In this document: piece by piece, positions 24,763 to 54,268 of the stretch
Numbering within the stretch: position 1 is the stretch's first letter
Layout of the letters: each line of letters opens with the position of its first letter
Source: Gammaproteobacteria bacterium
Lineage (GTDB): Bacteria; Pseudomonadota; Gammaproteobacteria; Eutrophobiales; Eutrophobiaceae
Length of the DNA: 64,000 nt
Direction: 5' to 3'
NCBI GenBank assembly: GCA_004297165.1
Contig: SCUJ01000010.1
Location: 5,001-69,000 of the forward strand
Notes under the pieces: model-generated
The model's database searches: none
What the model was told of the DNA's origin: nothing
The model's input: only the letters and a program-made list of their open reading frames with translations
Program-made: the position numbers and the translations under genes

Positions 24763-24799
24763 GGCTTGCCTCCTTTGTTAACAGACTGTGGTCATGCGG

Positions 24800-26899
24800 T
24801 CATGCTTTATCCTGGCTCCATTGCTCGAAGGTCCGGCCTTCCCTGACGAGCTGCTCCAGCAGCGGCGCCGGTGTCCAGTAGCGGTCGCCGTAGCGGTCAC
24901 GGTATTTTCGCGTCGCCTCGAGGACGTTCCCGAGGCCGATCATATCCGCATAGATCATGGGGCCGCCGCGATAACGCGGCATCCCGTAGCCGCTGGTGAA
25001 CACGACATCGATATCGCATGACCGCAGGGCGATACCTTCTTCCAGCACGCGGGCGCCTTCGTTGACCATCGAGTAGAGCAGGCGCTCGATGACTTCCGTG
25101 TCGCCGATCTCGCGCCGGGCGATCCCGAGCCGTTGCGCCTCCTGCCTCGCCAGATCCGCCACGACAGGATCGGGCAGCGGTTTTCTGCCGTCATACTTGA
25201 AATAGCCGGCGGAGGTCTTCTGGCCCAACCGCCCCTGCTCGCGGAGCAGGCCGAGCATGCGGAAGGCCGCGGGGTCTGCGGGCCGGTCTTTCCATTCCAT
25301 CAGGGCGCTGTGAAAGACGTCGATGCCGGAGAGGTCCACCACGCTCAGCGGGCCCATCGCCATGCCCCAGTCGTAAGCCAGCTTGTCGATGCGCTCGGGC
25401 GCGACGCCCTCTAGCAGCATTAAATCGGCCTCCCGGATGTACGGGAAATAGACGCGGTTGCCGACGAAACCGAAACAGACGCCGACCAGCACCGCGGTCT
25501 TTTTGATGCGTTTGGCCAGCGCCATGGAGGTAGCGACGACGTCCTTTGCCGTCTTCGCCCCGCGCACGATCTCCAGCAGGACCATGATGTTCGCGGGCGC
25601 GAAGAAATGCAGGCCGATCACGTCTTCCGGGCGCCGGGTGACGGCGGCGATGGCATCGACATCCAGACTGGAGGTGTTGGTGGCGAGGATCGCCCCCGGC
25701 TTGCAGACCTGATCCAACCTTGTAAACACCTCCCGTTTGACCTTCATGTCCTCGAATACGGCCTCGATGACCAGATCCGCGCCGGCAAGGGCCTCGTATG
25801 CGAGCGCCTTCGTGTGCAACGCCATGCGCTGCTCCAGCACCTCCGCCTTCAACCGGCCCTTGTCGACATAATCCTGGTAGGTCTTGCGGATGCGGGCGAC
25901 GCCCCGGTCCAGCGCTTCTTCATTCATCTCCAGTTGGATCACTGGGATCCCGGCATTGAGAAAGTTTATGGCTATCCCCGTTCCCATGGTGCCGGCGCCG
26001 ATGATCCCGACCTGTTTGATGTCCCGGAGCGGGATATCCTTGGGTATATCAGGGATCTTTGTAATGGTCCGTTCCGCGAAGAAGAGATAGCGTTGGGCGC
26101 GGGAATGCGGCGAGGCCTTGCATTCGTTGAACAGACGCGTCTCCAGTTCGAGCGCCTCCGGGAATGGCTTCTGCGCGGCCGCCTCCAGGCACTCGACGAT
26201 CCGCAGGGGCGAAAAGAAACCGCGCGCCTCTTTCGCCAATTTAGCCCGCGCCTGCTGAAAGAAGTCCGCTGGCAGGTCAGAGGTATTGACACGCAGCTCG
26301 CTGAGACGCCGCACCGGGGCCTTCTGTTCCACCAGCTTGCGGGCCGCGGCAATCGCCCCGGCGCGCAGGTCGCCCTCGATAATCTCGTCGATCACGCCGC
26401 TGGCCTTGCCTTCCGCCGCGGTCATGGGTTTGCCGGAGAGGATCATCTCCAGGGCCTTCGGAATGCCGGTCAATCGCGGCAACCGCTGGGTCCCACCGGC
26501 GCCCGGCAGCAGGCCGAGGTTCACCTCGGGCAGTCCCATGGAGGCCGAGTTAAGGGCGCAACGATAGTGGCAGGCCAGCGCGGTTTCGAAGCCACCGCCG
26601 AGGGCCGTGCCGTGCAACGCGGCGACCACGGGTTTCGGGGAGGCCTCGATCCGGAGCAGGACCTTGGGCAGCCAGGGGTCTTCCGGCGGTTTGTCGAACT
26701 CCGTGATATCCGCGCCCGCGATGAAGGTGCGCCCGGCACAGATCAAAATGCCTGCCGCAATGCCGGGATCGGCCAGAAACTCGTCGAGTATTTCCCACAG
26801 CCCCTTGCGCACGGCGAAGGACATGGCGTTAACCGGCGGGTTATCGATGGTGATGACCCCGATATTACCCACGCGCTCAAAACTGACAACATCAGACAT
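24800..26899 (-). CDS. fadJ: Bifunctional enoyl-CoA hydratase / 3-hydroxyacyl-CoA dehydrogenase
   Basis: 699 aa multifunctional beta-oxidation enzyme. The N-terminal crotonase domain (VNAMSFAVRKGLWEIL, HGTALGGGFETALACHYR with the oxyanion Gly pair, PEVNLGLLPGAGGTQRLPR) is followed by an NAD-binding Rossmann domain (VGIIGAGTMGTGIAINFL, about residue 298) and the hydroxyacyl-CoA dehydrogenase domain (VIGLHFFAPANIM, GFVGNRVYFPYIREADLML). It lacks the long FadB thiolase-interaction features and matches the FadJ/peroxisomal-MFE type by length. AAGGAAAT precedes ATG 26899. First gene of the operon with fadE; the thiolase must be encoded elsewhere. Confidence 0.93.
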   Translation of the reverse strand: MSDVVSFERVGNIGVITIDNPPVNAMSFAVRKGLWEILDEFLADPGIAAGILICAGRTFIAGADITEFDKPPEDPWLPKVLLRIEASPKPVVAALHGTALGGGFETALACHYRCALNSASMGLPEVNLGLLPGAGGTQRLPRLTGIPKALEMILSGKPMTAAEGKASGVIDEIIEGDLRAGAIAAARKLVEQKAPVRRLSELRVNTSDLPADFFQQARAKLAKEARGFFSPLRIVECLEAAAQKPFPEALELETRLFNECKASPHSRAQRYLFFAERTITKIPDIPKDIPLRDIKQVGIIGAGTMGTGIAINFLNAGIPVIQLEMNEEALDRGVARIRKTYQDYVDKGRLKAEVLEQRMALHTKALAYEALAGADLVIEAVFEDMKVKREVFTRLDQVCKPGAILATNTSSLDVDAIAAVTRRPEDVIGLHFFAPANIMVLLEIVRGAKTAKDVVATSMALAKRIKKTAVLVGVCFGFVGNRVYFPYIREADLMLLEGVAPERIDKLAYDWGMAMGPLSVVDLSGIDVFHSALMEWKDRPADPAAFRMLGLLREQGRLGQKTSAGYFKYDGRKPLPDPVVADLARQEAQRLGIARREIGDTEVIERLLYSMVNEGARVLEEGIALRSCDIDVVFTSGYGMPRYRGGPMIYADMIGLGNVLEATRKYRDRYGDRYWTPAPLLEQLVREGRTFEQWSQDKA

Positions 26900-27160: not shown

Positions 27161-28438
27161 ATGAGTGCATTTCGAAACATAAAACTGTTGCGCCTCTGCC
27201 TGGCAATCCTCTGCCTTCCGGTGGCCGCGGCCGGGCAGTCGGCGCCGGATGCGATGACGACCCTCGATTCCGCCGATACCCCGGCCAATATCTCCCGTTA
27301 TGAAGCCTTGATTTCGGACCTTGAGAGCCGCTACGGCGCCTATCATGTCGATCTTTCGGAGACGCTGGTCGGGCTTGGCCGGGCCTATCAGGAGAAGGGC
27401 GATTACGCCGCCGCGGTTTCGGCCCTGCAACGATCCTTGCACATCAACCGGGTCAACAATGGCCTGTATGACTCAGGACAGTTGCCGATCCTCTCCCTGC
27501 TCATCGAGGCGAACAAGGCCAGGCGGGACTGGCAAGCGCTGGATCAGAACTACCACTACAGGTACTGGATTACCCGCCGCGCTTATGGAGAGAAAGACCC
27601 CAGACAGTTGCCGGCGCTCTACGACGCGGCGCATTGGCACCTGGACGCCTACTACGGCGGGGTGGATGAATACCCTCTCCCGCATCTACTCAAGGCCTAC
27701 GATCTCTATACCAGGGCGGTAAGGATCCTCGAGGCCAATGGCGGTCCGGACAATCCGGATCTCGTCACGCCGCTCTATGCAACGGCCCGCACGCTGTACG
27801 AGATGCGGCAACTGGCCGCCAATTTCTTTGCCGGAGAAAAAACCGGCATCAGCGAGGATAATCGCACCGGTTTCAATGAACGCACGACCGACAGCGAGAA
27901 TCAACTCTATGCGATTGTCGGCAACACCTTCCGCGAGGGGAAACAGGCACTGGAACGCGCGATCGCCATCTATCGAAACCACCCGGAATTGCCGGCGGAG
28001 GAACGCGCGGCGGCCCTCGTTCATCTCGGCGACTGGCATCTGTTATACGACAAGACTGGCAAGGCCCTGGATAACTACCACGAGGTCTACTCGATCGCCG
28101 GCTCGGAAGAGGGTTTGCTGAAAAAGATCGACGGGCTGTTCTCGGAACCCAGGTCCATTCCGGTCCTCAGACTCCCCGATAATGGGCAACCTCAACAATC
28201 GCCAGTGGACAAAGACGCGAATGTCAACTATGTCATCGCCTCCTTCAATGTCTCCGAGACCGGACGGCCGTTCAATATCCATATACTTGAGGCGAAACCC
28301 GCCAATGACGCCTCGATGCGACGGCAGGCCCGGCAGGACATCCGCGGGACGCGGTTCCGGCCGCGCTTCGAAAAGGGTCAACCCGTGGCCTCCACCAACG
28401 TTAATTTCCGTTACGTTTTTCCAGGAACATTGCAATGA
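27161..28438 (+). CDS. Exported TPR protein with TonB-like C-terminal domain (first gene of the envelope operon)
   Basis: 425 aa from ATG 27161, chosen because MSAFRNIKLLRLCLAILCLP starts a clear signal peptide ending near AAAGQS; the frame is open further upstream without one. TPR-like helices follow (ETLVGLGRAYQEKGDYAAAV, LVHLGDWHLLYDKTGKALDN). The last ~80 residues (ETGRPFNIHILEA, DIRGTRFRPRF) resemble the TonB C-terminal fold also used by periplasmic adaptors. Its stop overlaps the next start (ATGA). A periplasmic scaffold role in the operon machine is inferred. Confidence 0.8.
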   Translation: MSAFRNIKLLRLCLAILCLPVAAAGQSAPDAMTTLDSADTPANISRYEALISDLESRYGAYHVDLSETLVGLGRAYQEKGDYAAAVSALQRSLHINRVNNGLYDSGQLPILSLLIEANKARRDWQALDQNYHYRYWITRRAYGEKDPRQLPALYDAAHWHLDAYYGGVDEYPLPHLLKAYDLYTRAVRILEANGGPDNPDLVTPLYATARTLYEMRQLAANFFAGEKTGISEDNRTGFNERTTDSENQLYAIVGNTFREGKQALERAIAIYRNHPELPAEERAAALVHLGDWHLLYDKTGKALDNYHEVYSIAGSEEGLLKKIDGLFSEPRSIPVLRLPDNGQPQQSPVDKDANVNYVIASFNVSETGRPFNIHILEAKPANDASMRRQARQDIRGTRFRPRFEKGQPVASTNVNFRYVFPGTLQ

Positions 28439-29481
28439 AACCTTCAGCCAATTTCGTAGTATCGGTACTCATCGCGGGCGCTGTCGCCCTGCTCTCCGCC
28501 TGCAATACCCAATCCTCGATGCGGCCTTCGGGGATGCCTTCCCCTACCAGCTCTACCGGCTCCTCAGGCAGTGCGGGGATCCCTGGACCCACGCCCATGC
28601 CGGGAAGCACGAGCAGCAGTGGGTCGGGACGCCAGTCTTCCACGGGGCAAACCCCTCGTTCCAGTTCCGGCACGGCCTCCCGTTCCGGCGCCGCCTCCAG
28701 TCCCGGTGAGCAAGGTTCCGGCGCCAATTCCGGCAGAAAGTCAGGGACAACCTCCGAATCGGGGACCGCAAACAAGAGCGGGACAGCGGACCGCGAAGGC
28801 GCCGCCGGGTCGGAAGCGCGCGGCGAGGGCGAGTCGGATACCGCCGGCAAATCGGATGACGAGATCCTGGCCGAGGCACTTGCGGCCCTCTCCGCCGGTA
28901 AGGCGAAGGGTCAGGGTACCGAATCCGAAGGCGAAAAAGACGGCGAGAAGACCGGGGCAGGGACCGATGGAAAGGGCGACGGTCAGCAAGATGGGGATCA
29001 AGGTACAGCGAACGCATCCCGCGCGGGCGATCGTAGCGGCAATGGAACCGATTCCAACTCCGGCAATCAGAATGCGGCGGATGGCCGGCTCACAGCGGGC
29101 CTGGCCGAATTCGATGATATGATACGGGACAAACGCGAGGAGGCGACGGCGCAGGCGAATACCGAAGGCGCCGGGCCACGCCGCATTTCCGGAGGCGCTG
29201 AAGATGAAGACGGCCTGCAAACCGCCATGCTGGACCGGGACCCACCGCCCGCGCCAGACGGCAGCGAACAGGGGGCTGGCGGTACCGATATGGCCAAGGC
29301 GGGCCCTGCGGCAGTAACGCCCGAATTCGAGGTCCCGGCTGACGTGGGCAACGGTCAGGACGACGACATCATCGCCAAACAACTGCGGGAGGCCGCGATG
29401 AAGGAGAAAGACCCGGAGTTGCAGGCGAAACTCTGGGAGGAGTACCGTAAATACAAGAATGACATGCAGGCGAGGACATGA
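28435..29481 (+). CDS. Low-complexity Ser/Gly/acidic lipoprotein
   Basis: 348 aa. A lipoprotein signal with lipobox LLSAC (Cys at about residue 23) is followed by some 70 residues rich in Ser, Gly, Thr and Pro, then a Gly/Asp/Glu/Lys-rich disordered stretch. The charged helical C-terminus (DDDIIAKQLREAAMKEKDPE) is the only region likely to fold. It overlaps both neighbours by 4 bases, so translation is coupled. It probably acts as a long flexible tether from the outer membrane; no family was recognised. Confidence 0.75.
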   Translation: MKPSANFVVSVLIAGAVALLSACNTQSSMRPSGMPSPTSSTGSSGSAGIPGPTPMPGSTSSSGSGRQSSTGQTPRSSSGTASRSGAASSPGEQGSGANSGRKSGTTSESGTANKSGTADREGAAGSEARGEGESDTAGKSDDEILAEALAALSAGKAKGQGTESEGEKDGEKTGAGTDGKGDGQQDGDQGTANASRAGDRSGNGTDSNSGNQNAADGRLTAGLAEFDDMIRDKREEATAQANTEGAGPRRISGGAEDEDGLQTAMLDRDPPPAPDGSEQGAGGTDMAKAGPAAVTPEFEVPADVGNGQDDDIIAKQLREAAMKEKDPELQAKLWEEYRKYKNDMQART

Positions 29482-30665
29482 TGCGATCCAACCATTTCCA
29501 ATTTCTGCTGACGGCCTGCCTGGGACTCCTGCTGGCAGGCTGCAATACCACGCAGGTGCGCACCACCGAGCATACCGGGATAATCCAGGAGTCGACGCCC
29601 ATTGCGGAACACCTGCTGCTCGATGTCGGCATCGGGATCTTCAATCCCGGCGTCGACCCGGACGCCGACCCCGAAAAGACCGGTATCTTTCCCAAGATCC
29701 GCGCGGCCGAGGCGCGTTTCATGCCCTATATCCTGATGGAGACCCTGCAACAAAGCGGCAACTGGGGCATGGTGCGGGTCATTCCGGACCGGCAGAGCGA
29801 GATGGATGTCTGGGTGGACGCCGAGATCCTGGTCTCGGACGGCGCGACCCTGGAGCTCGGGGTAACCGTGCAGGACAGTTCCGGGCGCACCTGGTTCACG
29901 AAAAAATACCAGGAAGAGGCCAGCAAATACGCCTTTGATCCAAGCATCCCCAACCACGGCGAACCCTTTCAGGGGCTCTATAACCGGATCGCCAACGACC
30001 TGCTGGCTTATCACCGGTCCCTGCCCGAGGCGGAGATCGTGGCCATCCGCACCATCACCGGCCTGCAATTCGCGCGGCGTTTCGCCCCCGAGGTCTTCAC
30101 CGGGCATCTCACCGCCGATGAGCAAGGGCGGTTGTACATCGCGCGGACGCCGGCGCCGAACGACCCGGTCTTGCAGCGGGTCGAGCAGATCCGGGAACGC
30201 GATTACATGTTCGTGGACACCCTGCAGGAATATTACGAATCCTTCGTGCGCCAGATGGATGTGCCTTACCTGGAATGGCGCAAGGCCTTTTACGAGGAGA
30301 GCGAGGCCCTGCGTGAGGCGCGGGCCCAGCGCAATGCCCGCCTCATCGGCGGGGCGGTCGCAATCCTCGGCGGGATCCTGGCCCAGGGCAGCAACAGCCC
30401 GGTGGTCAACACCGCAGGACAGGTCGGCATCTTTGGCGGGGCCGCCGCCATCTACAGCGGTCTGCACAAGCGGGAGGAGGTCAAGTTCCATGTCGAGTCG
30501 CTGGAACAAATCTCGGACTCGTTGCAGGGGGAGATGGAACCCCACACCATGGCTTTGGAGGACAAGACAGTGACCCTCAGCGGTTCCGTCAACGAGCAGT
30601 ACCGGCAGTGGCGCGAGATCCTGCGGGAGATGTACGAAAGCGAAACAGGATTGACAACAAACTAG
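29478..30665 (+). CDS. Lipoprotein of the envelope operon, family unknown
   Basis: 395 aa with lipobox LLLAGC (about residue 23). The N-terminal ~200 residues look like a mixed alpha/beta periplasmic domain (HLLLDVGIGIFNPGVDPD, EMDVWVDAEILVSDGATLEL). A glycine-rich hydrophobic stretch (about 290-320, GGAVAILGGILAQG) could be a membrane-inserting or packing segment. The C-terminus is charged and helical. The start ATG at 29478 overlaps the preceding stop. Not recognised further. Confidence 0.75.
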   Translation: MMRSNHFQFLLTACLGLLLAGCNTTQVRTTEHTGIIQESTPIAEHLLLDVGIGIFNPGVDPDADPEKTGIFPKIRAAEARFMPYILMETLQQSGNWGMVRVIPDRQSEMDVWVDAEILVSDGATLELGVTVQDSSGRTWFTKKYQEEASKYAFDPSIPNHGEPFQGLYNRIANDLLAYHRSLPEAEIVAIRTITGLQFARRFAPEVFTGHLTADEQGRLYIARTPAPNDPVLQRVEQIRERDYMFVDTLQEYYESFVRQMDVPYLEWRKAFYEESEALREARAQRNARLIGGAVAILGGILAQGSNSPVVNTAGQVGIFGGAAAIYSGLHKREEVKFHVESLEQISDSLQGEMEPHTMALEDKTVTLSGSVNEQYRQWREILREMYESETGLTTN

Positions 30666-30727
30666 AACAGCAACCAGATCGACGGACCGCCCGCCCGTTC
30701 GCCACCTGCAGGCAGCACTGATACAGC

Positions 30728-32299
30728 ATGATTTCAAATCCGGATCGTGAACCAGACGAATTCGCATCGCCAACCATCCGGCCGGCGCGGATCGACCTGA
30801 GCCGGCGCTCGGTCGACGGCGCTCAAGCGGCTTCCGGCCTCCGTAATCCGCGCTATATCGCCGTGGCGCTCCTGTTCGGTCTGCTCATCGCCGCGGCCGT
30901 GGGCGTGATCGTCGTCCTGCCGGACTGGCGTCCCGCCATCGCCCCTGTTACGTCTCAAGCCAACAACGCAGGCGTCAAGCAGGCAGTCGCCGCCACAACG
31001 CCCCCGCCGCCCGCGGCGACGGCGCCGCCCCCCGGCGATGCCCCCTGGCAGAAGGCGATCCGCTCGGGTCTGCGCAAGGACAGCCAGTTGATCCTGGAGC
31101 AACTCCTGGAGGCGCGCAAATCGCTGGAGGAACACGGGGTCATGCAGTGGGCGTCCGCTGATTTCGAGCAGGCCATGACCACGGCCGAGGCGGGCGACAA
31201 ATTCTACAACGGGCAGGAATTCGAGCAGGCGCGCGACAGTTACCAGAAGTCCCTCGATGCGCTTAACGGTTTATTGGAACGCAAGGAAACCCTGTTCGAG
31301 GAATCCATGCAGAAGGGGTTGCAGGCCCTGAATGACGGCGATTCCGCCAGCGCGAAGGCGGCCCTGCAACTCGCCCTGGCCATCGATCCCCTGGATCGCG
31401 AGGCGGGCCTCGCCATGCAACGGGCCGGGACGCTGGATGAGGTCCTCGCCCTGATCGCCGAAGGCGATGATCTCCTTGCAGCCGACCAGCTCGAGGCGGC
31501 ACAAGGCAGCTATGCCAAGGCCCAGGGTCTGGATCCGGCCTATCCCGTCACCGCGGAAAAACTGCAACTTGTCGAGACCCGTATCCGGGACCTGGTCTTC
31601 GGGCGGCACATGTCCGCGGGTTTTGCGGAGCTCGAGGCGGGACGGCTGGACGAGGCCCGCAAGGCCTTCAACGAGGCGCTCAAAGTCGCAACGAATTCGG
31701 TGGAGGCGCGCAATGCCCTCGAACAGGTCAATCTTAAACTCACCGGCAACCGGATCCAGGCCCTGTTAAAACAGGCCGAGGCCGACGAGGCGGCGGAGGA
31801 GTGGCAGGCCGCGCAGCGGTCCTATGAGGACGCGCTGGCCATCGATGACAAGCTCGCCGCCGCGCAAGCCGGCAGGGAGCGCACCGCCGTGCGCGCGGCC
31901 ATCCACGAGCAGGTGATGTCGATCATCGACCACCCGGACCGGCTCTATGACCCGAAGGTGTATTCAGAAACCCGGACATTTCTCGACCGGATGCATGCGC
32001 TCTCCGACAAGGGCCCCGTGTTATCGAAACAACTCGCCACGCTCGGTGGATTGATGGAGCAGGCCGCCACCCCGGTCCGCGTCCGCCTGCAATCCGATAA
32101 CCAGACAGAGGTGACGATTTATAAAGTGGGCAACCTCGGTTTTTTCACGGACCTGGAACTGGAACTGCGGCCTGGCCGCTATGTCGCGGTGGGCATCCGC
32201 TCCGGATACCAGGACGCGCGGACGGAATTCCAGGTGGCGCCGGATCAGCCGGAACAGATCGTGCAGGTCCGGGCTGACCGCCCCAGCATGCCGCGCTGA
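30728..32299 (+). CDS. Inner-membrane TPR protein
   Basis: 523 aa. A ~40-residue cytoplasmic tail with many Arg precedes one membrane helix (about 41-63, YIAVALLFGLLIAAAVGVIV), a Pro/Ala linker, then tandem TPR-like helices (ADQLEAAQGSYAKAQGLDPA, AGRLDEARKAFNEALKVATN, AEEWQAAQRSYEDALAIDDK). The C-terminal beta domain (VTIYKVGNLGFFTDLELELR) resembles PEGA-type carbohydrate- or protein-contact modules. Most of the protein is therefore periplasmic. It starts 62 bases after the preceding gene and 18 bases before the PEGA/SUMF1 gene, whose domain style it shares. Confidence 0.8.
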   Translation: MISNPDREPDEFASPTIRPARIDLSRRSVDGAQAASGLRNPRYIAVALLFGLLIAAAVGVIVVLPDWRPAIAPVTSQANNAGVKQAVAATTPPPPAATAPPPGDAPWQKAIRSGLRKDSQLILEQLLEARKSLEEHGVMQWASADFEQAMTTAEAGDKFYNGQEFEQARDSYQKSLDALNGLLERKETLFEESMQKGLQALNDGDSASAKAALQLALAIDPLDREAGLAMQRAGTLDEVLALIAEGDDLLAADQLEAAQGSYAKAQGLDPAYPVTAEKLQLVETRIRDLVFGRHMSAGFAELEAGRLDEARKAFNEALKVATNSVEARNALEQVNLKLTGNRIQALLKQAEADEAAEEWQAAQRSYEDALAIDDKLAAAQAGRERTAVRAAIHEQVMSIIDHPDRLYDPKVYSETRTFLDRMHALSDKGPVLSKQLATLGGLMEQAATPVRVRLQSDNQTEVTIYKVGNLGFFTDLELELRPGRYVAVGIRSGYQDARTEFQVAPDQPEQIVQVRADRPSMPR

Positions 32300-32317
32300 A
32301 TCAGGGACACATCCCGC

Positions 32318-34366
32318 ATGCACGACGAAAATATCCGCATCGAGGCCGCCCCCTTCAAGCCGCACACGCCAGGGCAACGCAGTCGCTCCCTCAAGCTGCG
32401 CGCCGGGGTGGTGCTCACCGGTCTGTTCCTGCTGATCAGCCTCGGGGCGGCATGGTTCCTGTTCAGTGCGCGCGCCGTCTATATCAATGTCACGCCCGCG
32501 GAGGCCCGGATCGATGTCGCCGCCATCCTGCAACTGCGACTGGCGGACCGCTTTCTCCTGCTCACTGGCAGTTACCCGACGGAGATCGGCGCGGAAGGCT
32601 ATTACCCGCTGGCGGTGGAACTGCCGATCACGGAGCAACAGAACCAGGAGTTTCACTATCAGTTGCAGCCGCTCCCCGGGAGTTTGCGGATCACGACGCC
32701 GGGGGTCGTGAATGCCGCGATCCTCCTCGACGGCGCTGCCCGCGGCGTTGCACCCACGGTCATTACGGAGATCCCTCAAGGCGGACACAGGTTGACCATC
32801 CAGGCCGAACGTTACTTCCCGGTGGAAACCAATATCGAGATTGAGGGCCTGGGCCGGGAGCAGGAACTCGCGGTGGAACTCAAACCGGCCTGGGCGGATG
32901 TGGAGATCGTCTCGGACCCGCAGGACGCGGAGGTCTTCCTGGGCGAGGAATCCCTGGGGCGCACCCCGCTCGCAATGACAATCCTGGAAGGCCGTCACCG
33001 CCTGATGGTGAAACGCGACGGCTTCAAGCCCTGGATCGATCACATCCAGATCACCGCCGGACAGGCGCAGCGTCTGACCGATATCCGTCTGGCGCCGGCC
33101 GATGCCACGGTCCTGTTGAGCAGCGACCCGCCGCAGGCCAATGCCACGGTGAACGGCGAATACATGGGCATGACGCCGCTGGAACTCGCCCTGACCCCGG
33201 GGCAGGCGGCGACCATCAAACTGCACAAGCCAGGGTTTCTATCCGCAGAACGCTCCCTGAAGCCCGCCTCCGGGGATCAGGTCCGTCTCAATGTCCCGTT
33301 GCAGCCGGAACTCGTCGAGGTCAGTTTCGATATCCGGCCGGCGGATGCCGAGTTGTATGTCGATGGCGCGCTGGCCGGCACGGGGAGTCAGCGCCTGCGC
33401 CTTCCCGTCCGGGGTCACCGGATCGAGGTGAAGAAGGCCGGCTACGCGGATTACAGCGACAGGATCGCGCTGCTCGGCGGGGCGGATCAGCAGGTCGCCA
33501 TCGAACTGAAGACGATCGCCGAGGTGCGCAAGGCGCAGATCAAATCCCGGGTAACGACAACCGCCGGCCAGACCCTGAAGCTGCTGGAGCCCTATACATT
33601 CACCCTGGGGGCCTCGCGCCGGGAGGCGGGCCGCCGGGCCAACGAGCCCCTGCGGACCGTGGAATTGCGCAAACCGTTTTACCTCAGCCTGAACGAGGTC
33701 ACCAATGCCCAGTTCCGGGAGATGAAAGCGGACCATCGCTCGGGCGAGGTCCAGGGCATCAGCCTCGACGACGACCCGCAACCCGTCGTGAACATCACCT
33801 GGGAACAGGCCGCGCAGTACTGCAATTGGCTGAGCCGCAAGGAATCGCTGCCATTGTTTTATCAGGAAACGGACGGGCGGATCACCGGCATCAACCCCGC
33901 AGCGTCCGGCTACCGCCTGCCGAGCGAGGCGGAGTGGGAATGGGCGGCGCGCGCCGTTCCGGGGACGGAGGGGTTGAAGTTTCCCTGGGGCCCGGCATTG
34001 CCGCCGCCGGATAAAAGCGGCAACTATGCCGACGAGACCTCGGCCGCGGTCATCGGCCGCATCCTGGAGAATTACAACGACGACCATCTGGCTGCCGCCC
34101 CGGTCGGCAGCTTTCCCGCCGGCAACAACGGCCTCTTCGACATGGGCGGCAATGTCTCCGAATGGGTCAACGATTATTACGGGATAGGACTGGAAAGCGC
34201 CAATGTGTCGAGCGACCCGCTCGGCCCCGAGTCCGGCGAATTTCACGTCATCAAGGGCTCCAGTTGGGCCCATGGAACGCTGGCGGAACTGCGCCTGTCT
34301 TATCGTGACTATGGGGATCAACCCCGCAACGATGTGGGCTTTCGGATCGCCCGGTATGTAGAATGA
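32318..34366 (+). CDS. Membrane-anchored PEGA-repeat protein with C-terminal SUMF1-like domain
   Basis: 682 aa. One membrane helix (about 28-48, AGVVLTGLFLLISLGAAWFL) is followed by several PEGA-type beta repeats (e.g. DPQDAEVFLGEESLGRTPLA, DPPQANATVNGEYMGMTPLE). Residues from about 429 form a formylglycine-generating-enzyme-like (SUMF1) fold (NEVTNAQFREM, YRLPSEAEWEWAARA, GLFDMGGNVSEWVNDYYG, DVGFRIAR). The cysteine pair needed for sulfatase activation is absent, since the final region reads VIKGSSWAHGTLAEL. It is therefore more likely a binding domain of the C-type-lectin-like fold than an enzyme. It lies in the middle of the envelope operon; cell-wall or glycan contact is inferred. Confidence 0.85.
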   Translation: MHDENIRIEAAPFKPHTPGQRSRSLKLRAGVVLTGLFLLISLGAAWFLFSARAVYINVTPAEARIDVAAILQLRLADRFLLLTGSYPTEIGAEGYYPLAVELPITEQQNQEFHYQLQPLPGSLRITTPGVVNAAILLDGAARGVAPTVITEIPQGGHRLTIQAERYFPVETNIEIEGLGREQELAVELKPAWADVEIVSDPQDAEVFLGEESLGRTPLAMTILEGRHRLMVKRDGFKPWIDHIQITAGQAQRLTDIRLAPADATVLLSSDPPQANATVNGEYMGMTPLELALTPGQAATIKLHKPGFLSAERSLKPASGDQVRLNVPLQPELVEVSFDIRPADAELYVDGALAGTGSQRLRLPVRGHRIEVKKAGYADYSDRIALLGGADQQVAIELKTIAEVRKAQIKSRVTTTAGQTLKLLEPYTFTLGASRREAGRRANEPLRTVELRKPFYLSLNEVTNAQFREMKADHRSGEVQGISLDDDPQPVVNITWEQAAQYCNWLSRKESLPLFYQETDGRITGINPAASGYRLPSEAEWEWAARAVPGTEGLKFPWGPALPPPDKSGNYADETSAAVIGRILENYNDDHLAAAPVGSFPAGNNGLFDMGGNVSEWVNDYYGIGLESANVSSDPLGPESGEFHVIKGSSWAHGTLAELRLSYRDYGDQPRNDVGFRIARYVE

Positions 34367-34370
34367 ATGT

Positions 34371-34607
34371 ATGCGCGCACTACTCTCATGTTTATCGTTA
34401 CTGCTGGCGCTGATGGCGCCGGTCGCGGCGCAGGACGCCCCCGTGCCGGAACCACCGAAGGCGGAGGATAATGACGGAGACAAGGAGGCGGGCAAAAACG
34501 TTCAACAAACCAAAACCAAACCAGAAGAGGCGCAGGCCCCCGATATAATCGAGACCACCGACAAGGCCTCCGAGGATCTACCTCTCATCTTTCCAGCGGA
34601 TATTTGA
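34371..34607 (+). CDS. Small exported acidic protein
   Basis: 78 aa. A signal peptide (LLSCLSLLLALMAPVAAQDA) is followed by a short, disordered, Lys/Glu/Pro-rich tail with no cysteine. It sits 5 bases after the PEGA/SUMF1 gene and 10 bases before the channel gene. It could be an accessory subunit or a translational spacer. No family was recognised. Confidence 0.6.
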   Translation: MRALLSCLSLLLALMAPVAAQDAPVPEPPKAEDNDGDKEAGKNVQQTKTKPEEAQAPDIIETTDKASEDLPLIFPADI

Positions 34608-34616
34608 ATAACGTCC

Positions 34617-35414
34617 ATGAAATACAATCCACTGCATGACTTTCTCTATCAGCTCTTCGCCCTGATCCTGTCCTTCATCCTGGTGCATGCCGTCTACGTC
34701 ACCATCATCCGGCCCAACGCCGATGCCCTGCTTGAGGAACAACAAAGGGAACAGGACGCCGGACAGCTCACGGAGATCAAGCGGTCCGTGCACATCGTGC
34801 TCAAGGATCCCGAGCAGGAATCCTGTTTCGTCCTGGCCTTCTGGGTATTCGCGATCATCGGCCAGAAGGCCAAGATCGCATTGCACGAGCGCAAGCTGCT
34901 GTCGCAGGCGTTGCTCGATGTGACGCCGGGGACCAGCATCCTGCCCGAGGACGCCCGCACCTATTCCCGGACGATTCAGACCCTGCCCGATTCGGAGCGC
35001 GAGTATCTCCTGCCGCGCGCCTTGCTTGCGGCGCTGCAACGCTTCGGCTCCACCCGCAGCATCCAGGATGCCTCCACTGCGATCCGGGAGATCTGCGACA
35101 CGGAATCCGATCGGCTTGATTCGGAACTGTCCATGGTCCGGTACATCATCTGGGCCATTCCCGCCATCGGCTTCATCGGCACGGTCCGGGGCATAGGCGA
35201 GGCCCTGACCCAGGCGCAGAAGGCGGTCCAGGGCGACATCATCGGGGTGACCATCGGCCTCGGCGTGGCCTTCAATTCGACCCTCGTCGCCCTGCTGCTC
35301 AGCATCGTCATCATGTTCATGATGCATCAACTGCAGTTGCTCCAGGAACGCCTGGTGCTCGACGCCCAGAATTACTGCGATGTGAATCTGGTCCGGCACC
35401 TGCAAATCAGGTAA
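34617..35414 (+). CDS. MotA/TolQ/ExbB-family proton channel protein
   Basis: 265 aa. Hydrophobic helices lie near residues 8-30, 62-78, 175-195 and 207-240. The conserved MotA/ExbB core is present: AIPAIGFIGTVRGIGEAL (Pro at 182, the TolQ/ExbB helix) and GVTIGLGVAFNSTLVALLLS. These proteins form pentamers that let protons through and drive a partner anchored by an Asp-bearing helix. No ExbD, TolR or MotB gene is adjacent. The two VWA proteins downstream have the matching helix (see their entries). This is therefore predicted to be the motor stator of the operon. Confidence 0.88.
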   Translation: MKYNPLHDFLYQLFALILSFILVHAVYVTIIRPNADALLEEQQREQDAGQLTEIKRSVHIVLKDPEQESCFVLAFWVFAIIGQKAKIALHERKLLSQALLDVTPGTSILPEDARTYSRTIQTLPDSEREYLLPRALLAALQRFGSTRSIQDASTAIREICDTESDRLDSELSMVRYIIWAIPAIGFIGTVRGIGEALTQAQKAVQGDIIGVTIGLGVAFNSTLVALLLSIVIMFMMHQLQLLQERLVLDAQNYCDVNLVRHLQIR

Positions 35415-35428
35415 AGGCGGAAAACGAC

Positions 35429-36751
35429 ATGCATCCGGTAATCATGGAACTCAACGACCACGAGATTCGGCTTGCCCGCGACGCGGAGATCATCCTGCGC
35501 AGCCCTGGTTACGCCCTCGTCAACGGCGGTCAGGTCGTCCTCGGCGAAGGCGCCGTCAGGCAATCCAGATTGCGCCCGCGTTCGATCCACGATCAATTCT
35601 GGGACCGGCTGAATGAGGATCCGCTGAAAACCCCCGCCGGGAGCCACCGTCACCATGCCGATCTGGCCTACTCGCACCTGCTCGACATGCATGCGCGGAT
35701 CGGCAAGCCGGAACAGATCGTGTTCGTCGTGCCAGGCAAGTTCAGCAATATGCAACTCGCCCTCCTGCTGGGGCTCGCCGAGGCGGCGCCATTCGCGGCG
35801 GCGGGACTCGTCGATCTTGCAACGGCCGCCATCGCCGCGGTTGCCGGGGCGGGAGAATATGTCCATATCGACATCCATCTCCACAACGCGGTGCTGACCC
35901 AGGTGACGGTCGCCGACCGCGTTCGCCGCGGCGGCGTTCAGGTGATCCCCGGGGCGGGCATGGGGGCGATCGTCGACAGTTGCGCCTATGCCATCGCCGA
36001 CCTGTTCATCAAGCAGTCGCGCTTCGACCCGCAACATCTCCCGGAGACCGAGCAGGAACTGTACAACCAGATCCCGGCCTGCCTCGCGGCCTTGTCATCC
36101 GCCGGGGAATACCTCATGCAAATCGCCCACGGGCAGGTGCAGCATCAGGTCCGGATCGATGCCGCCGCCCTCGCCCCGGCGCTCGAAAAACACTATCAGC
36201 GGATCCGCGCCGCGATTCCGCCGGGCCGGGGCTGCCTGCTGTCCGATCGCGCTGCGGGTCTGCCCGGTTTCGCGGCAGGGCTCGATTGCGCCGGGACGCT
36301 CGAGGAAACGGCCACTTTTCTGGGGTGCCTTGCGAATCTTGCCGAGATCTGCCGTCCGGCGGAGGGCAAGTCCATGCCCTACATCACCTCACTGCCGCGC
36401 ACCGAGTCGCCGCGGATTCATCCGAAGGTCAACCTGACGAAAACCCGGCATCCCGCTGCGTCGCCAAACCGGACGGGCATCACTCATGTCCTGTACCGGG
36501 GACAGGCCTGGCCGCTCGCGAACGGACCGCTCCATCTCGGCGCGGCGGGCGGTCCGCCGCTGGCGGCCCCCTCAACGAGCGGCTGCACCGTAAACCCCAC
36601 ACCGGCCGGCGCGGAGGTCCGTTCCCTCGACAGCGACACGCTGGTCATCAACGGGAAACCCGCTCCCACGCCGGCGCAAGTCGCGCCAGGCGATCAACTT
36701 GCCTTCCCCGGAACGGATACGAGTTATACCTTCATCAACGTGACCGGCTGA
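35429..36751 (+). CDS. Actin/Hsp70-like (ASKHA) protein, tentative
   Basis: 440 aa, no signal peptide. The start (MELNDHEIRLARD, then GYALVNGGQVVLGEGA) and the internal EYVHIDIHLHNAVLTQV resemble the two phosphate-binding strands of the actin/Hsp70 fold, and EQIVFVVPGKFSNMQLALLL resembles the connecting region. The glycine-rich nucleotide loops are not all clear, so the fold call is tentative. The C-terminal ~90 residues form a separate small domain rich in Thr, Pro and Gly. Position between the channel and the VWA genes suggests a cytoplasmic ATP-binding regulator or scaffold. Confidence 0.5.
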   Translation: MHPVIMELNDHEIRLARDAEIILRSPGYALVNGGQVVLGEGAVRQSRLRPRSIHDQFWDRLNEDPLKTPAGSHRHHADLAYSHLLDMHARIGKPEQIVFVVPGKFSNMQLALLLGLAEAAPFAAAGLVDLATAAIAAVAGAGEYVHIDIHLHNAVLTQVTVADRVRRGGVQVIPGAGMGAIVDSCAYAIADLFIKQSRFDPQHLPETEQELYNQIPACLAALSSAGEYLMQIAHGQVQHQVRIDAAALAPALEKHYQRIRAAIPPGRGCLLSDRAAGLPGFAAGLDCAGTLEETATFLGCLANLAEICRPAEGKSMPYITSLPRTESPRIHPKVNLTKTRHPAASPNRTGITHVLYRGQAWPLANGPLHLGAAGGPPLAAPSTSGCTVNPTPAGAEVRSLDSDTLVINGKPAPTPAQVAPGDQLAFPGTDTSYTFINVTG

Positions 36752-36752
36752 C

Positions 36753-37838
36753 ATGGCGCGACGGGTCCGGCGGGAAGCATCCTTCTTCAGCCTGTCCTTC
36801 CTGGATGTCATGTCCTGCGGGCTCGGCGCGGTGGTGCTGCTGTTTTTGATCATCAAGCACAACGCCGATGCGAAGGTGACCGAGACCCCGGTCGATGACC
36901 TGCGTTCCGAGGTTGTCCTGCTGGAAGAAGAGATCGACACCGGGCAACAGGACCTCGCAAAGCTGCGCAATACCCTCTCGGACCTTGACGATCAGCTCGC
37001 CACCGCGCAGGGGCTCGCCCGCCGGATCATGGATTCGATCTCAGCGGAGAAGGAGCAGACCGCCGAGGTCAAACCGGCCAGCGAGGCCGAGGAACTCGAC
37101 CGCCTGAAGCGGGAGATCGTCAGGCTGGAGACCGAGCGCCAGAAGTTGCTGACCGAGGAGAACCAGACCGGGGCGAATATCCGCCGCCACGCCGGCGAAG
37201 GCAACCGGGCCTATATCACGGGGCTGCGTCTCGGCGGCCGGCGCATCCTGATCCTCCTGGACGCCTCCGGCAGCATGCTGGATCGGACCATCGTGAACAT
37301 CCTGCGGATCCGCAACATGCGGGACGAGCGCAAACGGCTCGCGTCCAAATGGCAGAGCGCCGTGGCGACCGTGGACTGGCTGACCGCCCGTCTGCCGCTC
37401 GACAGCCAGTACCAGATATACACCTTCAACACCCGCACCGCCGCGGCCTTGCCGGACACCCTAGGCCGCTGGCTCGCGGTGAAGGACAAACCGCAAATCA
37501 CCCGGGCGGTGGAGCAATTGCGAACCCTGGTCCCGGAGGGCGGGACCAATATGGAACAGGTCTTCCGGGCGGCGCGGGAGATGTCGCCGCCGCCGGACAA
37601 CATCATCCTCATCACCGACGGACTGCCCACCCAGGACAACCGCGGCGGCAGCGGAAATGTCACCGGCAAGCAGCGGCTCCAGTTTTTCAGCAATGCCCTG
37701 AAACAGCTCCCGACGGGGGTCCCGGTGAACGTCATCCTCGAACCCCTGGAAGGCGATCCGGACGCCCCGACCGCGTTCTGGCAGCTCGCGCAGGCGACGG
37801 ATGGCTCCTACATGAGCCCCACGGGGGACTGGCCATGA
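36753..37838 (+). CDS. Membrane-anchored VWA protein 1 with ExbD-like Asp helix
   Basis: 361 aa. After a short basic tail the single helix reads FSLSFLDVMSCGLGAVVLLF, with Asp18 where ExbD (FIDVMLVLL), TolR and MotB keep their essential Asp. A coiled coil follows (about 45-145, rich in Glu, Leu and Lys). The VWA domain then has a complete MIDAS: DASGSM at 170, GGTNM in the middle and LITDG later. Topology puts coil and VWA in the periplasm. It starts 2 bases after the ASKHA-like gene and overlaps the next VWA gene by 4 bases. Likely role: the moving, ligand-binding partner of the ExbB-like channel (inferred). Confidence 0.85.
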   Translation: MARRVRREASFFSLSFLDVMSCGLGAVVLLFLIIKHNADAKVTETPVDDLRSEVVLLEEEIDTGQQDLAKLRNTLSDLDDQLATAQGLARRIMDSISAEKEQTAEVKPASEAEELDRLKREIVRLETERQKLLTEENQTGANIRRHAGEGNRAYITGLRLGGRRILILLDASGSMLDRTIVNILRIRNMRDERKRLASKWQSAVATVDWLTARLPLDSQYQIYTFNTRTAAALPDTLGRWLAVKDKPQITRAVEQLRTLVPEGGTNMEQVFRAAREMSPPPDNIILITDGLPTQDNRGGSGNVTGKQRLQFFSNALKQLPTGVPVNVILEPLEGDPDAPTAFWQLAQATDGSYMSPTGDWP

Positions 37839-38830
37839 GCCGCCGAGCGCGGCGGGAGACCGAGGTCTTCAGCCTCTCCCTGCTCGATGTCGTCACGTGC
37901 GGCTTCGGCGCGATCATCCTCCTGTTGATGATCGCCAGGACCGGCGATGCCCCGGTCCTCGAGGTCTCGCCCGAACCGCTGGACGCGGTGGTCCGCGACC
38001 TCCAGACCCAGTTGTTTCAAATCCGGGGCGAGACCACGATCCTCAACCGGGACCTGAACGCGCGGCATGAACAGATCTCCATCTGGGAGGAAAAGATCGC
38101 CATCCTGCAAGGCGAGCTGGAACAGGCCCGGCGTTCCATGGATGAGATCAAGGACCAGAATTCGGTGAATGCGGTCATCAAGGGGGAGCTGGAACTCGCA
38201 CTCCAGGAACTGACCGCCGAGATGAAACTGCTGCTCGCGCGCAAGGAATCCATCGACACCGGCATCATCGGCGGCATCCCGGTGGACAGCGAATATGTCG
38301 TGTTCGTCATCGACACCTCGGGCAGCATGCAGAGCCACCATTGGGACAGGATGATCGCGATGGTGAACGAGACCCTGGATGCCTACCCCACGGTCAAGGG
38401 CATGCAGATCATGAGCGACATGGGCGAATACATGATCACCGGGAAGCGCCGCCAGTGGATCAAGGACACCCCTGCCCTGCGGCGGACCATCCTCAATACC
38501 CTGCGGAACTGGGCGCCCTTCAGCATCAGCAGCCCGGTGGGCGGCATCCTCGAGGCCGTGCGCGCCTTCCGGGAAAACACCCCGGGGAAGGTCAGCATCT
38601 ATGTCTTCGGCGATGAATTCACCGGCGACTCGATCCGGCAGGTGATCAGGACCGTGGATCAATTGAACCCGCGGGACGAGGCGGGCAATACCAAGATCCG
38701 CATCCATGGCGTGGGTTTTCCCGCCGTGGCCAATGCCCATGCCGATTACCAGTTCACCAACCGGCGCTTCGCCACGCTGATGCGCGAGATTGCCTACCGC
38801 AACAATGGTACATTTGTTGGTCTAAACTAA
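37835..38830 (+). CDS. Membrane-anchored VWA protein 2, paralog of VWA protein 1
   Basis: 331 aa from ATG 37835, which overlaps the previous stop (ATGA); the frame runs further left but only as antisense-like shadow. The N-terminus aligns without gaps to VWA protein 1: RRARRETEVFSLSLLDVVTC, again with Asp18 in the helix. A coiled coil (about 45-140) leads to a VWA domain with DTSGSM at 160. The later MIDAS residues are less clear than in the paralog (VFGDEFTGDS). Two different Asp-bearing partners would suit an ExbB5-ExbD2-type motor built as a heterodimer. Confidence 0.85.
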   Translation: MSRRARRETEVFSLSLLDVVTCGFGAIILLLMIARTGDAPVLEVSPEPLDAVVRDLQTQLFQIRGETTILNRDLNARHEQISIWEEKIAILQGELEQARRSMDEIKDQNSVNAVIKGELELALQELTAEMKLLLARKESIDTGIIGGIPVDSEYVVFVIDTSGSMQSHHWDRMIAMVNETLDAYPTVKGMQIMSDMGEYMITGKRRQWIKDTPALRRTILNTLRNWAPFSISSPVGGILEAVRAFRENTPGKVSIYVFGDEFTGDSIRQVIRTVDQLNPRDEAGNTKIRIHGVGFPAVANAHADYQFTNRRFATLMREIAYRNNGTFVGLN

Positions 38831-38840
38831 TGTAAACAGG

Positions 38841-39464
38841 ATGCCGCCCATGACCGTTCGCCCGCAACGTATCCTTTCCTGGCTGATCGTCTCAGCATTC
38901 CTTTTGAGCGGGTGCAATAATTCACTCAGCCTCAAAACCGCGATCGAGGTACCCGAACCCCAGGTCGCCAAACTGCCGCTGACCGTGGGGGTTTACTACG
39001 AGGACGAACTGAAAAACCATGTCTACACCGAGGACAGCGAGGACCGTCCCGGCTGGAAGATCGACACCGGCGAGTCCCAGGTCGAGCTTTTCGATCGGAT
39101 CCTGCCGGCGATGTTTCAGACTGTTACGCAGGTCGCGCAACCGACCAGCGGCGGGGGGCTGGATGCCGTGCTCGCCCCGCATGTCGAGGACATGCAGTTC
39201 GCCCTGCCGCGCGAGACCGGGACCGATCTCTACGAGGCCTGGATCAAATACCGGCTCAGCCTCTACGACCAGGCCGGGGTCGCCATCGCGAACTGGACCA
39301 TCTCCGGTTACGGGAAATCCACCCCGGAGTTTCTGGGCCGCCGGGATGAAGGTCTCCAACAGGCGATCAATGCCGCCTTCCGCGACGCGGGGGCGCGCCT
39401 TGCCCTCAGTTTCACCCGCAACGAGGAGGTGAAGAAATGGCTCTCGGAAAAACTTGGCGAGTAA
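38841..39464 (+). CDS. Lipoprotein of the envelope operon
   Basis: 207 aa with lipobox LLSGC (LIVSAFLLSGCNNSLSLKTA). The mature part reads like an uncharacterised lipoprotein domain of the LPS-assembly/transport-accessory style (KLPLTVGVYYEDELKNHVY; YEAWIKYRLSLYDQAGVAIA). It ends in a charged helix. The start is ATG 38841 or ATG 38850; CAGG lies 2 bases from the first and 10 from the second, so the second may be the true one. It overlaps the upstream leader of the next lipoprotein gene. Confidence 0.75.
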   Translation: MPPMTVRPQRILSWLIVSAFLLSGCNNSLSLKTAIEVPEPQVAKLPLTVGVYYEDELKNHVYTEDSEDRPGWKIDTGESQVELFDRILPAMFQTVTQVAQPTSGGGLDAVLAPHVEDMQFALPRETGTDLYEAWIKYRLSLYDQAGVAIANWTISGYGKSTPEFLGRRDEGLQQAINAAFRDAGARLALSFTRNEEVKKWLSEKLGE

Positions 39465-39484
39465 ACCTTGCCGATACTGCTGTC

Positions 39485-40156
39485 ATGAAAACGCCCGCCG
39501 CCAATTCGCCGCTCGTGAAATGCCTGTTGGCGTTGTCGCTTGGCTTGGGCGGTTGCAAGAGCACCACGGTGATCGACGAATACCGCGAAGCGCCCACGGC
39601 CGCGCTCGGCGCCGGGGAATCGGTGGTGGTCCTGGGCCGCCGTCACAATAGCGAGCACGAGACCGAGGAGGACTTCATCTCCTGTGTCGGCAAGAACCTG
39701 ACCAACGGCAAGGCCGCCATGCGGGTCATCCCCGAGCAGGAGTTCGTCGACAGCATGTACCCCTACTTCGAAACCAGCACCGCCCCCATGGACGTGAAGA
39801 ATCTCGACTCTCTGGTGGAGAATCCGGCGATAGCGCGGAAATTCGCGGACCTGGATATCCATTATTTCATCTGGATCGACGGTTTCACCGAACGCACCGG
39901 CAGCGAAGGCTCAATCTCCTGCGCCATCGGCCCCGGCGGCGGCGGTTGCTTCGGCTTCGCCACCTGGGATGACGAGGCCAACTACGAAGCCAGCGTCTGG
40001 GACTTCAAGTCATTGAACTTCTCGGGCAAGATCAACGCCGAAACCAAGGGGACCTCCTACATGCCCGCCGTCATCGTCCCGATCCCGCTGCTCGCGAGGG
40101 TTCAGGCAAACGCCTGCAAGAGCATGGCGGAACAGATCCGGACCTTCATTCAATGA
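39485..40156 (+). CDS. Second small lipoprotein of the envelope operon
   Basis: 223 aa from ATG 39485, chosen because it gives a clean lipoprotein signal (LLALSLGLGGCKSTTV). The mature domain has several Cys (DFISCVGKNLTNG, SISCAIGPGGGGCFGFA) that may form disulfides, and an alpha/beta pattern (FADLDIHYFIWIDGFTERTG). The last 4 bases overlap the M48 protease gene. No family was recognised. Confidence 0.72.
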   Translation: MKTPAANSPLVKCLLALSLGLGGCKSTTVIDEYREAPTAALGAGESVVVLGRRHNSEHETEEDFISCVGKNLTNGKAAMRVIPEQEFVDSMYPYFETSTAPMDVKNLDSLVENPAIARKFADLDIHYFIWIDGFTERTGSEGSISCAIGPGGGGCFGFATWDDEANYEASVWDFKSLNFSGKINAETKGTSYMPAVIVPIPLLARVQANACKSMAEQIRTFIQ

Positions 40157-40833
40157 AATTAATTCATATTTTGCTGCTCGCCTGCGCCCTCGCCGGCATC
40201 TCGCTGCAATCCGCAACCGCCGCCACCGCGCAGGGGCCGACGGTCTGGCTGGTGCGCGAGTTGGCCAAGGCCCCGACCGATACCCTGCCGCTGCGCGACG
40301 CCCGCGACCGGGTGGTGAAGACCATCCCGTCGAGCCAGGCGGTTTATCTTTATGCCCTTTTCACAGGACTCCTGGAAGCGGCCGAACTTGAGGCGGAGCT
40401 TTATCTCATCGAGGGCAAGGATCCGAACGCCATGGCGACGCTGGGCGAGAAAGGCGAGAACATCATCGCCATCAACTTCGCCATGCTCGACCTGCTGGGG
40501 GATGATCTGCACGCCCTGGCCGGCGTCATCGGTCATGAGCTGGCGCACCTCAAGCTGAACCACTATCAGGATAAGATCGATGCGTTGCAACGCAATCAGA
40601 ATTCCATGATCACCGCAGAGAACACCAAATACAGCCGGGACAACGAGCGCGAGGCGGATTATCTCGGCATGATCTGGTCGATCGAGGCGGGCTACGATCC
40701 GGAGGGGGCGGTACGCGCCCAGGAGGCACTGTACAAACTGGCGCGACACGGCGGCATGTTCGTCGGCTCGCATCCTTCCAGCATCGAACGGATCACGGTC
40801 CTGAAATCGCTGGCCCGGCGTCTGAAAAAATAA
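40153..40833 (+). CDS. Periplasmic M48-family zinc metalloprotease
   Basis: 226 aa. A signal peptide (LIHILLLACALAGISLQSAT) precedes a compact M48 domain with the zinc motif GHELAHLKLNH (H128-E-x2-H) and the third-ligand region DNEREADYLGMIWS. The C-terminal text GSHPSSIERITVLKSLARRL is typical of the HtpX/BepA/Oma1-like group. Its ATG overlaps the preceding stop, making it the last of the thirteen operon genes. It probably does quality control on, or processes, the outer-membrane or periplasmic parts of this machine (inferred). Confidence 0.88.
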   Translation: MKLIHILLLACALAGISLQSATAATAQGPTVWLVRELAKAPTDTLPLRDARDRVVKTIPSSQAVYLYALFTGLLEAAELEAELYLIEGKDPNAMATLGEKGENIIAINFAMLDLLGDDLHALAGVIGHELAHLKLNHYQDKIDALQRNQNSMITAENTKYSRDNEREADYLGMIWSIEAGYDPEGAVRAQEALYKLARHGGMFVGSHPSSIERITVLKSLARRLKK

Positions 40834-42297: not shown

Positions 42298-42600
42298 TTA
42301 GGCGCCAAGCCGCTCAATGATATAGGCAGGGTCCTGAGAGCCATGAATGACCGCGAGTATTTGTACGGTCTGCTCGTCGAAAGTATAGAAGACAAGGTAC
42401 GGAAACGTGTGCGTTACCGCCCTTCGGATGTCTGTCTCCACTTCCTGATACAAAAATGGATTGGGTAGAATTCGATCGCAGGCCAATTCAATTTCGTCCA
42501 TGAACCGCCAACCAAGGCCCTCCTGCTTTTCTTCGTAGGAGAGGTAGCCGTCGAGAATGTCCGCCTCAGCCTCTTTTGTAACAATGAGCTTGCGGCTCAT
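42298..42600 (-). CDS. ParE/RelE-superfamily toxin
   Basis: 100 aa, full length. Family features are KEAEADILDGYLSYEEKQEG, the long helical hairpin, and the C-terminal FPYLVFYTFDEQTVQILAVIHGSQDP. It inhibits gyrase (ParE) or translation (RelE); which cannot be told from sequence. It overlaps its antitoxin gene by 4 bases. Its stop TAA falls within GCCTAAT (42303-42297), as in cassette genes. Confidence 0.88.
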   Translation of the reverse strand: MSRKLIVTKEAEADILDGYLSYEEKQEGLGWRFMDEIELACDRILPNPFLYQEVETDIRRAVTHTFPYLVFYTFDEQTVQILAVIHGSQDPAYIIERLGA

Positions 42601-49343: not shown

Positions 49344-49425
49344 CGAACGGGCCGGCCGGGGCTAGCGGGGACGGATGAGCGACACGGTTTGGCTGCCGAT
49401 CCGATTCAATCTGGGGGGAGGTTAC

Positions 49426-49457
49426 GCCGCCGGAGTCATCTCCGGCGGCTTTTTTTC
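49426..49457 (+). terminator. Strong intrinsic terminator after subunit I
   Basis: GCCGCCGGAG, loop TCAT, CTCCGGCGGC, then seven T residues. A 10-bp perfect GC-rich stem between norS-like and senC-like genes; it may reduce readthrough into senC. Confidence 0.88.
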
Positions 49458-49515
49458 CCGCCGACGCCACCATCCGATGCGCTCATCGACGCCGGTAGCG
49501 ATTGATTGAGCGTCG

Positions 49516-53517: not shown

Positions 53518-54267
53518 ATGAAAATTCTTGTCCCCATTAAACGGGTGGTCGACCCTAACATCCGGGTCCGTGTGAAATCCGATCAAACCGGCGTCGAAAC
53601 CGCCAATCTCAAGATGGCGATCAACCCCTTCTGCGAGATCGCGGTTGAAGAGGCCGTACGCTTGCAGGAGGCCGGCAAGGCCAAGGAAGTGGTGCTGGTC
53701 ACCATCGGCGGCAGCCAGTGTCAGGACGTGCTCCGCACCGGCATGGCCATGGGCGCGGACCGGGCGATCCTGATCGAGACGGATGCCGCGTTGCAACCGC
53801 TCGGGATCGCGAAACTGCTCAAGGCCGTCATCGAGAAGGAGGCGCCCAATCTCGTCATCACCGGGAAACAGGCCATCGATGACGACAACAACCAGACCAG
53901 CCAAATGCTGGCCGCCCTGCTCGGCTGGCCGCAGGGGACCTTCGCCTCCAAGCTCGAACTCAACGGCGATCACGCCGTGGTCACCCGCGAGATCGACGGC
54001 GGACTGGAGACCCTCAAGCTGCGCCTGCCCGCCGTGATCTCCACCGACCTGCGCCTCAACGAACCGCGCTACGTGAAGCTGCCGAACATCATGAAGGCCA
54101 AGAAGAAGCCGCTGGACGTGATCAAGCCGGAGACCCTCGGCGTAGATTTCGCGCCACGGCTCAAGTCCCTCAAGGTCGAGGAGCCCGCCAAGCGCAAGGC
54201 CGGGATCAAGGTGGCGAATGTGGCCGAACTGGTCGCGAAACTGAAGAACGAAGCGAAGGTGATTTAA
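53518..54267 (+). CDS. etfB: Electron transfer flavoprotein subunit beta
   Basis: 249 aa. Typical start [40 protein letters not shown] and [20 protein letters not shown] are the nucleotide-binding signatures, and [20 protein letters not shown] is the family C-terminal motif with the recognition loop. With EtfA it carries electrons from acyl-CoA dehydrogenases such as FadE to the quinone pool. One base separates it from etfA. Confidence 0.96.
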
Positions 54268-54268
54268 G

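Follow-up and report, generated by a model that had tools for sequence, protein, structure and literature searches.

To our knowledge, the proton-driven motors recognized so far in the cell envelope are few (Mot, Ton, Tol, Agl, Gld and Zor). The locus analyzed here has in common with the MotA/TolQ/ExbB 5:2 superfamily a PF01618-type channel, a pore-lining Thr pair, and a single-TM partner bearing an Asp-containing helix. A related arrangement is described in PMC12204202 (Mol Biol Evol 2025), which reports TolQ-like genes accompanied by heterologous vWA pairs with a trans-pore helix and a conserved Asp, and without tolR or exbD; the AF3 models of TolQ-vWA pairs published there agree with a reading of the VWA proteins as axles. 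Our operon resembles these TPH-vWA systems in its tolQ-like gene, its heterologous pair of Asp-helix vWA genes and its lack of exbD, a likeness in described features, and differs from them in its PEGA-SUMF1 gene, neither PEGA nor SUMF1 being mentioned in the main text of that paper according to a term search. The core idea of a TolQ-VWA motor is therefore already known as a published prediction, so that the original prediction for this DNA, which found no named system to fit the gene set, is right only in part. What goes beyond that description is the whole conserved operon, the FlgT/PelC/CsgG/TolB-N fold of g3, the Hsp70-like fold of g8, and the relatives with kinase, PP2C and FHA components; no other papers on this gene set were found in the open-licence PMC literature. 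The conserved operon provides the likely parts of another such motor, among them candidate partners at the outer membrane and a connection to phosphorylation, and with it a structural guess from the literature becomes a machine open to testing.

The operon also resembles Tol-Pal, with which it shares a TolQ-type channel with a matching Thr pair, envelope lipoproteins and, in the N-terminal domain of g3, the TolB-N fold; it differs in that a VWA axle replaces TolR and that PEGA-SUMF1 and ASKHA proteins are added, and no match to the TolA, TolB or Pal families was obtained among the operon proteins. Like GldLM with GldK and GldN, of type IX secretion and gliding, it combines a motor with a SUMF1-like envelope protein, whereas g7 is of the MotA_ExbB family and g5 scores well below the GldK cut-off. 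The kinase, PP2C and FHA modules of its relatives recall the Thr phosphorylation pathway (PpkA, PppA, Fha and TagQRST) of the type VI secretion system (T6SS), whereas the operon itself contains no T6SS genes.

The window, that is, the whole 64-kb stretch of DNA analyzed (on contig C4 of its genome), contains 13 co-directional plus-strand ORFs between positions 27161 and 40833, designated g1 to g13, with ATGA-type 4-base overlaps at four junctions (g1/g2, g2/g3, g9/g10 and g12/g13). The predicted gene set is present, with Pfam matches to MotA_ExbB, PEGA, FGE-sulfatase, TPR, VWA and M48. The total of 13 proteins stands, while the number of TPR proteins has to be lowered by one, to two (g1 and g4), and that of lipoproteins or small exported proteins raised by one, to five (g2, g3, g6, g11 and g12). 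The predicted lack of an ExbD gene adjoining the operon was confirmed by a PF02472 search, which located the four ExbD genes of the same genome on contigs C13 and C5, and Pfam analysis of the operon proteins found no ExbD/TolR periplasmic domain on the axle proteins, which carry VWA domains instead. For g3, g8, g11 and g12, no naming match was found in NCBIfam, PHROGs or PADLOC. Upstream of the operon, two large minus-strand ORFs (22321-26899) look, by reading, like beta-oxidation proteins (acyl-CoA dehydrogenase-like and FadB-like); on the other side lie a minus-strand 100-aa ORF (42298-42600), which by reading resembles a RelE/ParE-type toxin, and genes with Pfam matches to a COX1-family oxidase, an SCO1-like protein and two ETF-domain proteins (47658-50385 and 53518-55198).

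The channel subunit is encoded by g7 (34617..35414), a MotA/TolQ/ExbB-type protein with four hydrophobic segments that matches PF01618 (MotA_ExbB) above the Pfam cut-off (E 8e-15) and, modestly, TolQ in a PDB sequence search (E 0.0025). T189 and T222 of g7 are invariant in ten sequences and line up with TolQ T145 and T178 in the HMMER alignment, the Thr numbering in this comparison being counted by hand from the printed alignment. Its putative partners, g9 (VWA1; 36753..37838) and g10 (VWA2; 37835..38830), begin with the N-termini FSLSFLDVMSCGLGAVVLLFLI and FSLSLLDVVTCGFGAIILLLMI, and each combines a trans-pore-type helix (SFLDVMSCGLGAVVLLFLI and SLLDVVTCGFGAIILLLMI, respectively) with a coiled coil and an adhesion-type VWA domain. 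Pfam VWA_2 matches g9 with an E-value of 2e-8 and g10 with 1e-4, the latter under the Pfam cut-off; in both proteins, the only matches of the region that follows the helix are to coiled coils, and these were not counted as homology. An Asp near the start of the sole hydrophobic segment is present in all 75 aligned VWA proteins (38/38 VWA1 and 37/37 VWA2), stays at this place in the proteins from another class of the phylum (AFLDI, SFLDI), and occupies the position that it has in the helices of this genome's ExbD proteins (ExbD INVVPYIDVML against FSLSFLDVMS; ExbD proteins with PYIDVML and PMLDFVL). Together with the conserved channel Thr, this invariance and alignment support the proposed role of the VWA helix as a substitute for ExbD. 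The canonical MIDAS residues of g9 (DxSxS, Thr and Asp) are retained in the 38 aligned VWA1 proteins with few exceptions; in VWA2, where g10 has DxSxS plus Asp, DxSxS occurs in 37/37 and the Asp is retained, with Ser at the column taken for the MIDAS Thr. The conserved MIDAS-type motifs suggest that the VWA domains may bind ligands.

Scanning genome contigs with g7 yielded nine related loci, and whole-genome searches many more. Eight of the nine are labelled Gammaproteobacteria or Proteobacteria; the ninth (L010:2527-3270), from a 4.7-kb contig with a Klebsiella pneumoniae label, has a g7 homologue (45% identity) as its only operon gene. In profile searches of 44 loci, g2-g3-g4-g5-g7-g9-g10 emerged as a core whose order hardly varies; g8 frequently accompanies it, and g1, g11, g12 and g13 occur in a subset. 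This core spans many families of its class and extends to a single family of a different class, VWA1 being present in 30 of 369 genomes in the class sample and in 15 of 398 in the phylum sample, 12 of the latter from that single family. Variants include four loci from another class of the phylum (L110, L111, L112 and L115), where the core is present and g8 was not detected; two loci from one family (L084 and L088), with g7 placed after g10; and L087, in which profile search detected neither g7 nor g3. VWA1 and VWA2 adjoin in nearly all loci, and among 39 VWA1 loci an ExbB-like gene lies nearby on the same strand in 37, VWA2 in 36 and PEGA-SUMF1 in 34, several of the exceptions being short contigs or narrow regions. 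The genes thus travel together, as the original prediction of a single machine implied, and their arrangement is far beyond chance. No conserved flanking genes were found outside the operon, save in small groups of loci, and tblastn (E 1e-5) gave no match to VWA1 in plasmid records. Given the conserved core, the Asp found in 75/75 VWA proteins and the channel Thr residues matching TolQ T145/T178, the operon likely encodes a motor of the 5:2 type whose axle is formed by VWA1 and VWA2.

Several genes encode candidate partners at the outer membrane. g2 (28435..29481; in 34/44 loci) is a lipoprotein with lipobox LSAC, a long low-complexity linker and a C-terminal motif, DDDIIAKQLREAAMKEKDPELQAKLWEEYRKYK, retained across loci. 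g3 (29478..30665) is an outer-membrane-type lipoprotein, with a lipobox read from the sequence as LAGC-NTT. Relatives of g3 numbering 32 were aligned. Its AF2 model (pLDDT 79.9) is confident for most of residues 36-187, and VIA-align comparison of this part, on which the fold assignment rests, gave Z-scores of 11.3 with FlgT, 10.3 with PelC, 9.7 with CsgG and 9.1 with the TolB N-terminal domain; Foldseek with g3 gave no match under 0.001, the best being weak (E 1.3e-3). The modeled N-terminal domain shares a fold common to envelope lipoproteins and ring proteins, and from this fold g3 probably forms a ring; for its Gly-rich, hydrophobic helical stretch at about 287-330, model confidence is low. 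g11 (38841..39464; in 20/44 loci) and g12 (39437..40156) are lipoproteins without Pfam matches, with lipoboxes LSGC-NNS and LGGC-KST, respectively. A PDB sequence search with g11 gave nothing useful, and g12 is well conserved (46-72% identity to relatives), its true start probably being a downstream Met near 39485. The lipobox-like ends of g2, g3, g11 and g12 have no Asp at +2, so that under the general Lol rule all four are expected to be sorted to the outer membrane. The remaining exported proteins are g1 (27161..28438; in 17/44 loci), a TPR protein (TPR_12, E 1e-14) with an N-terminal hydrophobic segment and a weak TonB C-terminal domain (TonB_C, E 2e-4, under the cut-off); g6 (34371..34607), a small acidic protein of 78 aa with a signal segment, weakly conserved and positioned before g7; and g13 (40153..40833), an M48 metalloprotease (Peptidase_M48, E 2e-16) found in 9/44 loci, at times on the opposite strand.

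Two single-pass membrane proteins and an ASKHA protein complete the set. g4 (30728..32299) is an inner membrane protein with a hydrophobic segment at residues 46-64, a periplasmic TPR region and, from reading of the sequence only, a PEGA-like C-terminus. g5 (32318..34366) carries four PEGA domains (Pfam PEGA, E 9e-43) and a SUMF1/FGE-sulfatase domain (E 1e-41), the latter present in 35/35 g5 relatives. Cys is absent from segment SSWAHGTLAELRLSYRDYG of the window copy, which we take to correspond to the active site where the FGE enzyme has its catalytic Cys pair, and at the 26 columns of this segment in the printed family alignment Cys is outside the four commonest residues; this lack of Cys among the commonest residues may point to a binding role for the SUMF1 domain. 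g8 (35429..36751), with an FHA-like C-terminus and no signal peptide seen, was correctly predicted to be ASKHA-like (Hsp70/actin-like): its AF2 model (pLDDT 91.9) matches Hsp70 chains in Foldseek with an E-value of about 3e-14, while a PDB sequence search returned nothing. Its consensus has LND and HxDxxLH at the places of the glycine-rich phosphate loops of Hsp70, which makes ATP turnover by g8 doubtful.

Taken together, we consider it probable that the operon encodes a trans-envelope proton-driven motor, in which a VWA1/VWA2 axle would sit in an ExbB/TolQ-like pentamer and work with lipoprotein partners; the finding is real, and the following mechanism is plausible. Five g7 copies would encircle a two-helix axle made of g9 and g10, and proton flow through this pentamer, via the axle Asp and the channel Thr, would turn or shift the axle. 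Raised by the coiled coil, the pair of VWA domains would reach into the periplasm and might grip partner proteins there with their metal-site faces. A periplasmic scaffold of the inner-membrane TPR (g4) and PEGA-SUMF1 (g5) proteins would transmit the force to lipoproteins assembled at the outer membrane, probably as a g3 ring with g2, g11 and g12, while the Hsp70-like g8 may control assembly or activity, in relatives together with a Ser/Thr kinase, a PP2C phosphatase and FHA domains. Our leading guess for the task of such a motor is outer membrane remodelling or transport across the outer membrane. More tentatively, and with slightly less than even confidence, we propose a separate class of trans-envelope motor, whose heterodimeric VWA1/VWA2 axle in an ExbB-type pentamer drives an outer-membrane lipoprotein ring, and which belongs to a wider kinase/PP2C/FHA-linked group with axles of differing output domains.

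The phosphorylation link bears on a different reading, in which the locus encodes a sensor and no force machine: the channel and the VWA pair would sense contact or damage at the envelope and signal to the cytoplasmic g8 and, in relatives, to kinase and FHA proteins, much as TagQRST-PpkA triggers the T6SS. An N-terminal Ser/Thr kinase domain (Pkinase) is present in five of 34 g4 relatives (L007, L008, L079, L030 and L080). In L007, L008 and L079, a gene for PP2C and another for a second kinase lie upstream, and g5 is extended at its N-terminus by a segment alignable between these loci. By reading of L007 and its relatives this segment looks FHA-like, while Pfam at E 0.001 called no FHA among the g5 proteins; FHA (PF00498) was called by Pfam in 8 of 30 g8 relatives. 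These parts, with the SUMF1 and lipoprotein components, resemble the Thr phosphorylation pathway modules of PMC6082577, and they suggest phosphorylation control in some lineages. The motor parts are nevertheless conserved where the kinase is missing, as in the window copy and most g4 relatives, and just 4 of the 26 carrier genomes have the T6SS gene VipA, which leaves a general T6SS link unsupported and the sensor reading unlikely. Since the window copy lacks both the kinase and a detectable FHA domain, phosphorylation control should not be assumed for it.

Rather improbable, in our estimate, is a motor for surface motility or adhesion like AglRQS/Glt or GldLM, in which the VWA heads or the lipoproteins would move adhesins. 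The use of two different axle proteins is shared with AglQ/AglS (PMC9389320), a title cited in PMC12204202 presents CglB, a protein of Myxococcus gliding, as a VWA adhesin, and the g5 SUMF1 domain has a weak similarity to GldK/PorK; however, this domain scores 107.5 bits, far under the 350-bit NCBIfam cut-off for GldK, so that GldK/PorK identity for g5 was rejected, and no extra genes are widely common to the flanks. A general link to flagella was likewise unsupported, FliG occurring in 11 of 26 carrier genomes. A Zorya-like anti-phage defence motor is very improbable: PADLOC gave a weak ZorA profile match to g7 (E 5e-4) but no other Zorya component among the operon proteins scanned, and the several lipoproteins point to the outer membrane.

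Besides the VWA-axle motor proposed here, we observed a distant, kinase/FHA-linked motor cluster without VWA (L042:1-10464; G016:C1:3430000-3449900). It encodes an STPK-SUMF1 protein, two trypsin-FHA proteins, a PP2C, an ExbB-like protein, FHA proteins, and a helix protein (FSMSALDLFASALGAFIL) that has an Asp-helix and a coiled coil and whose C-terminal part gave no Pfam match. Parts of this set recur in five further loci (L122-L126), with an ExbB-like gene detected in L123 and L124.
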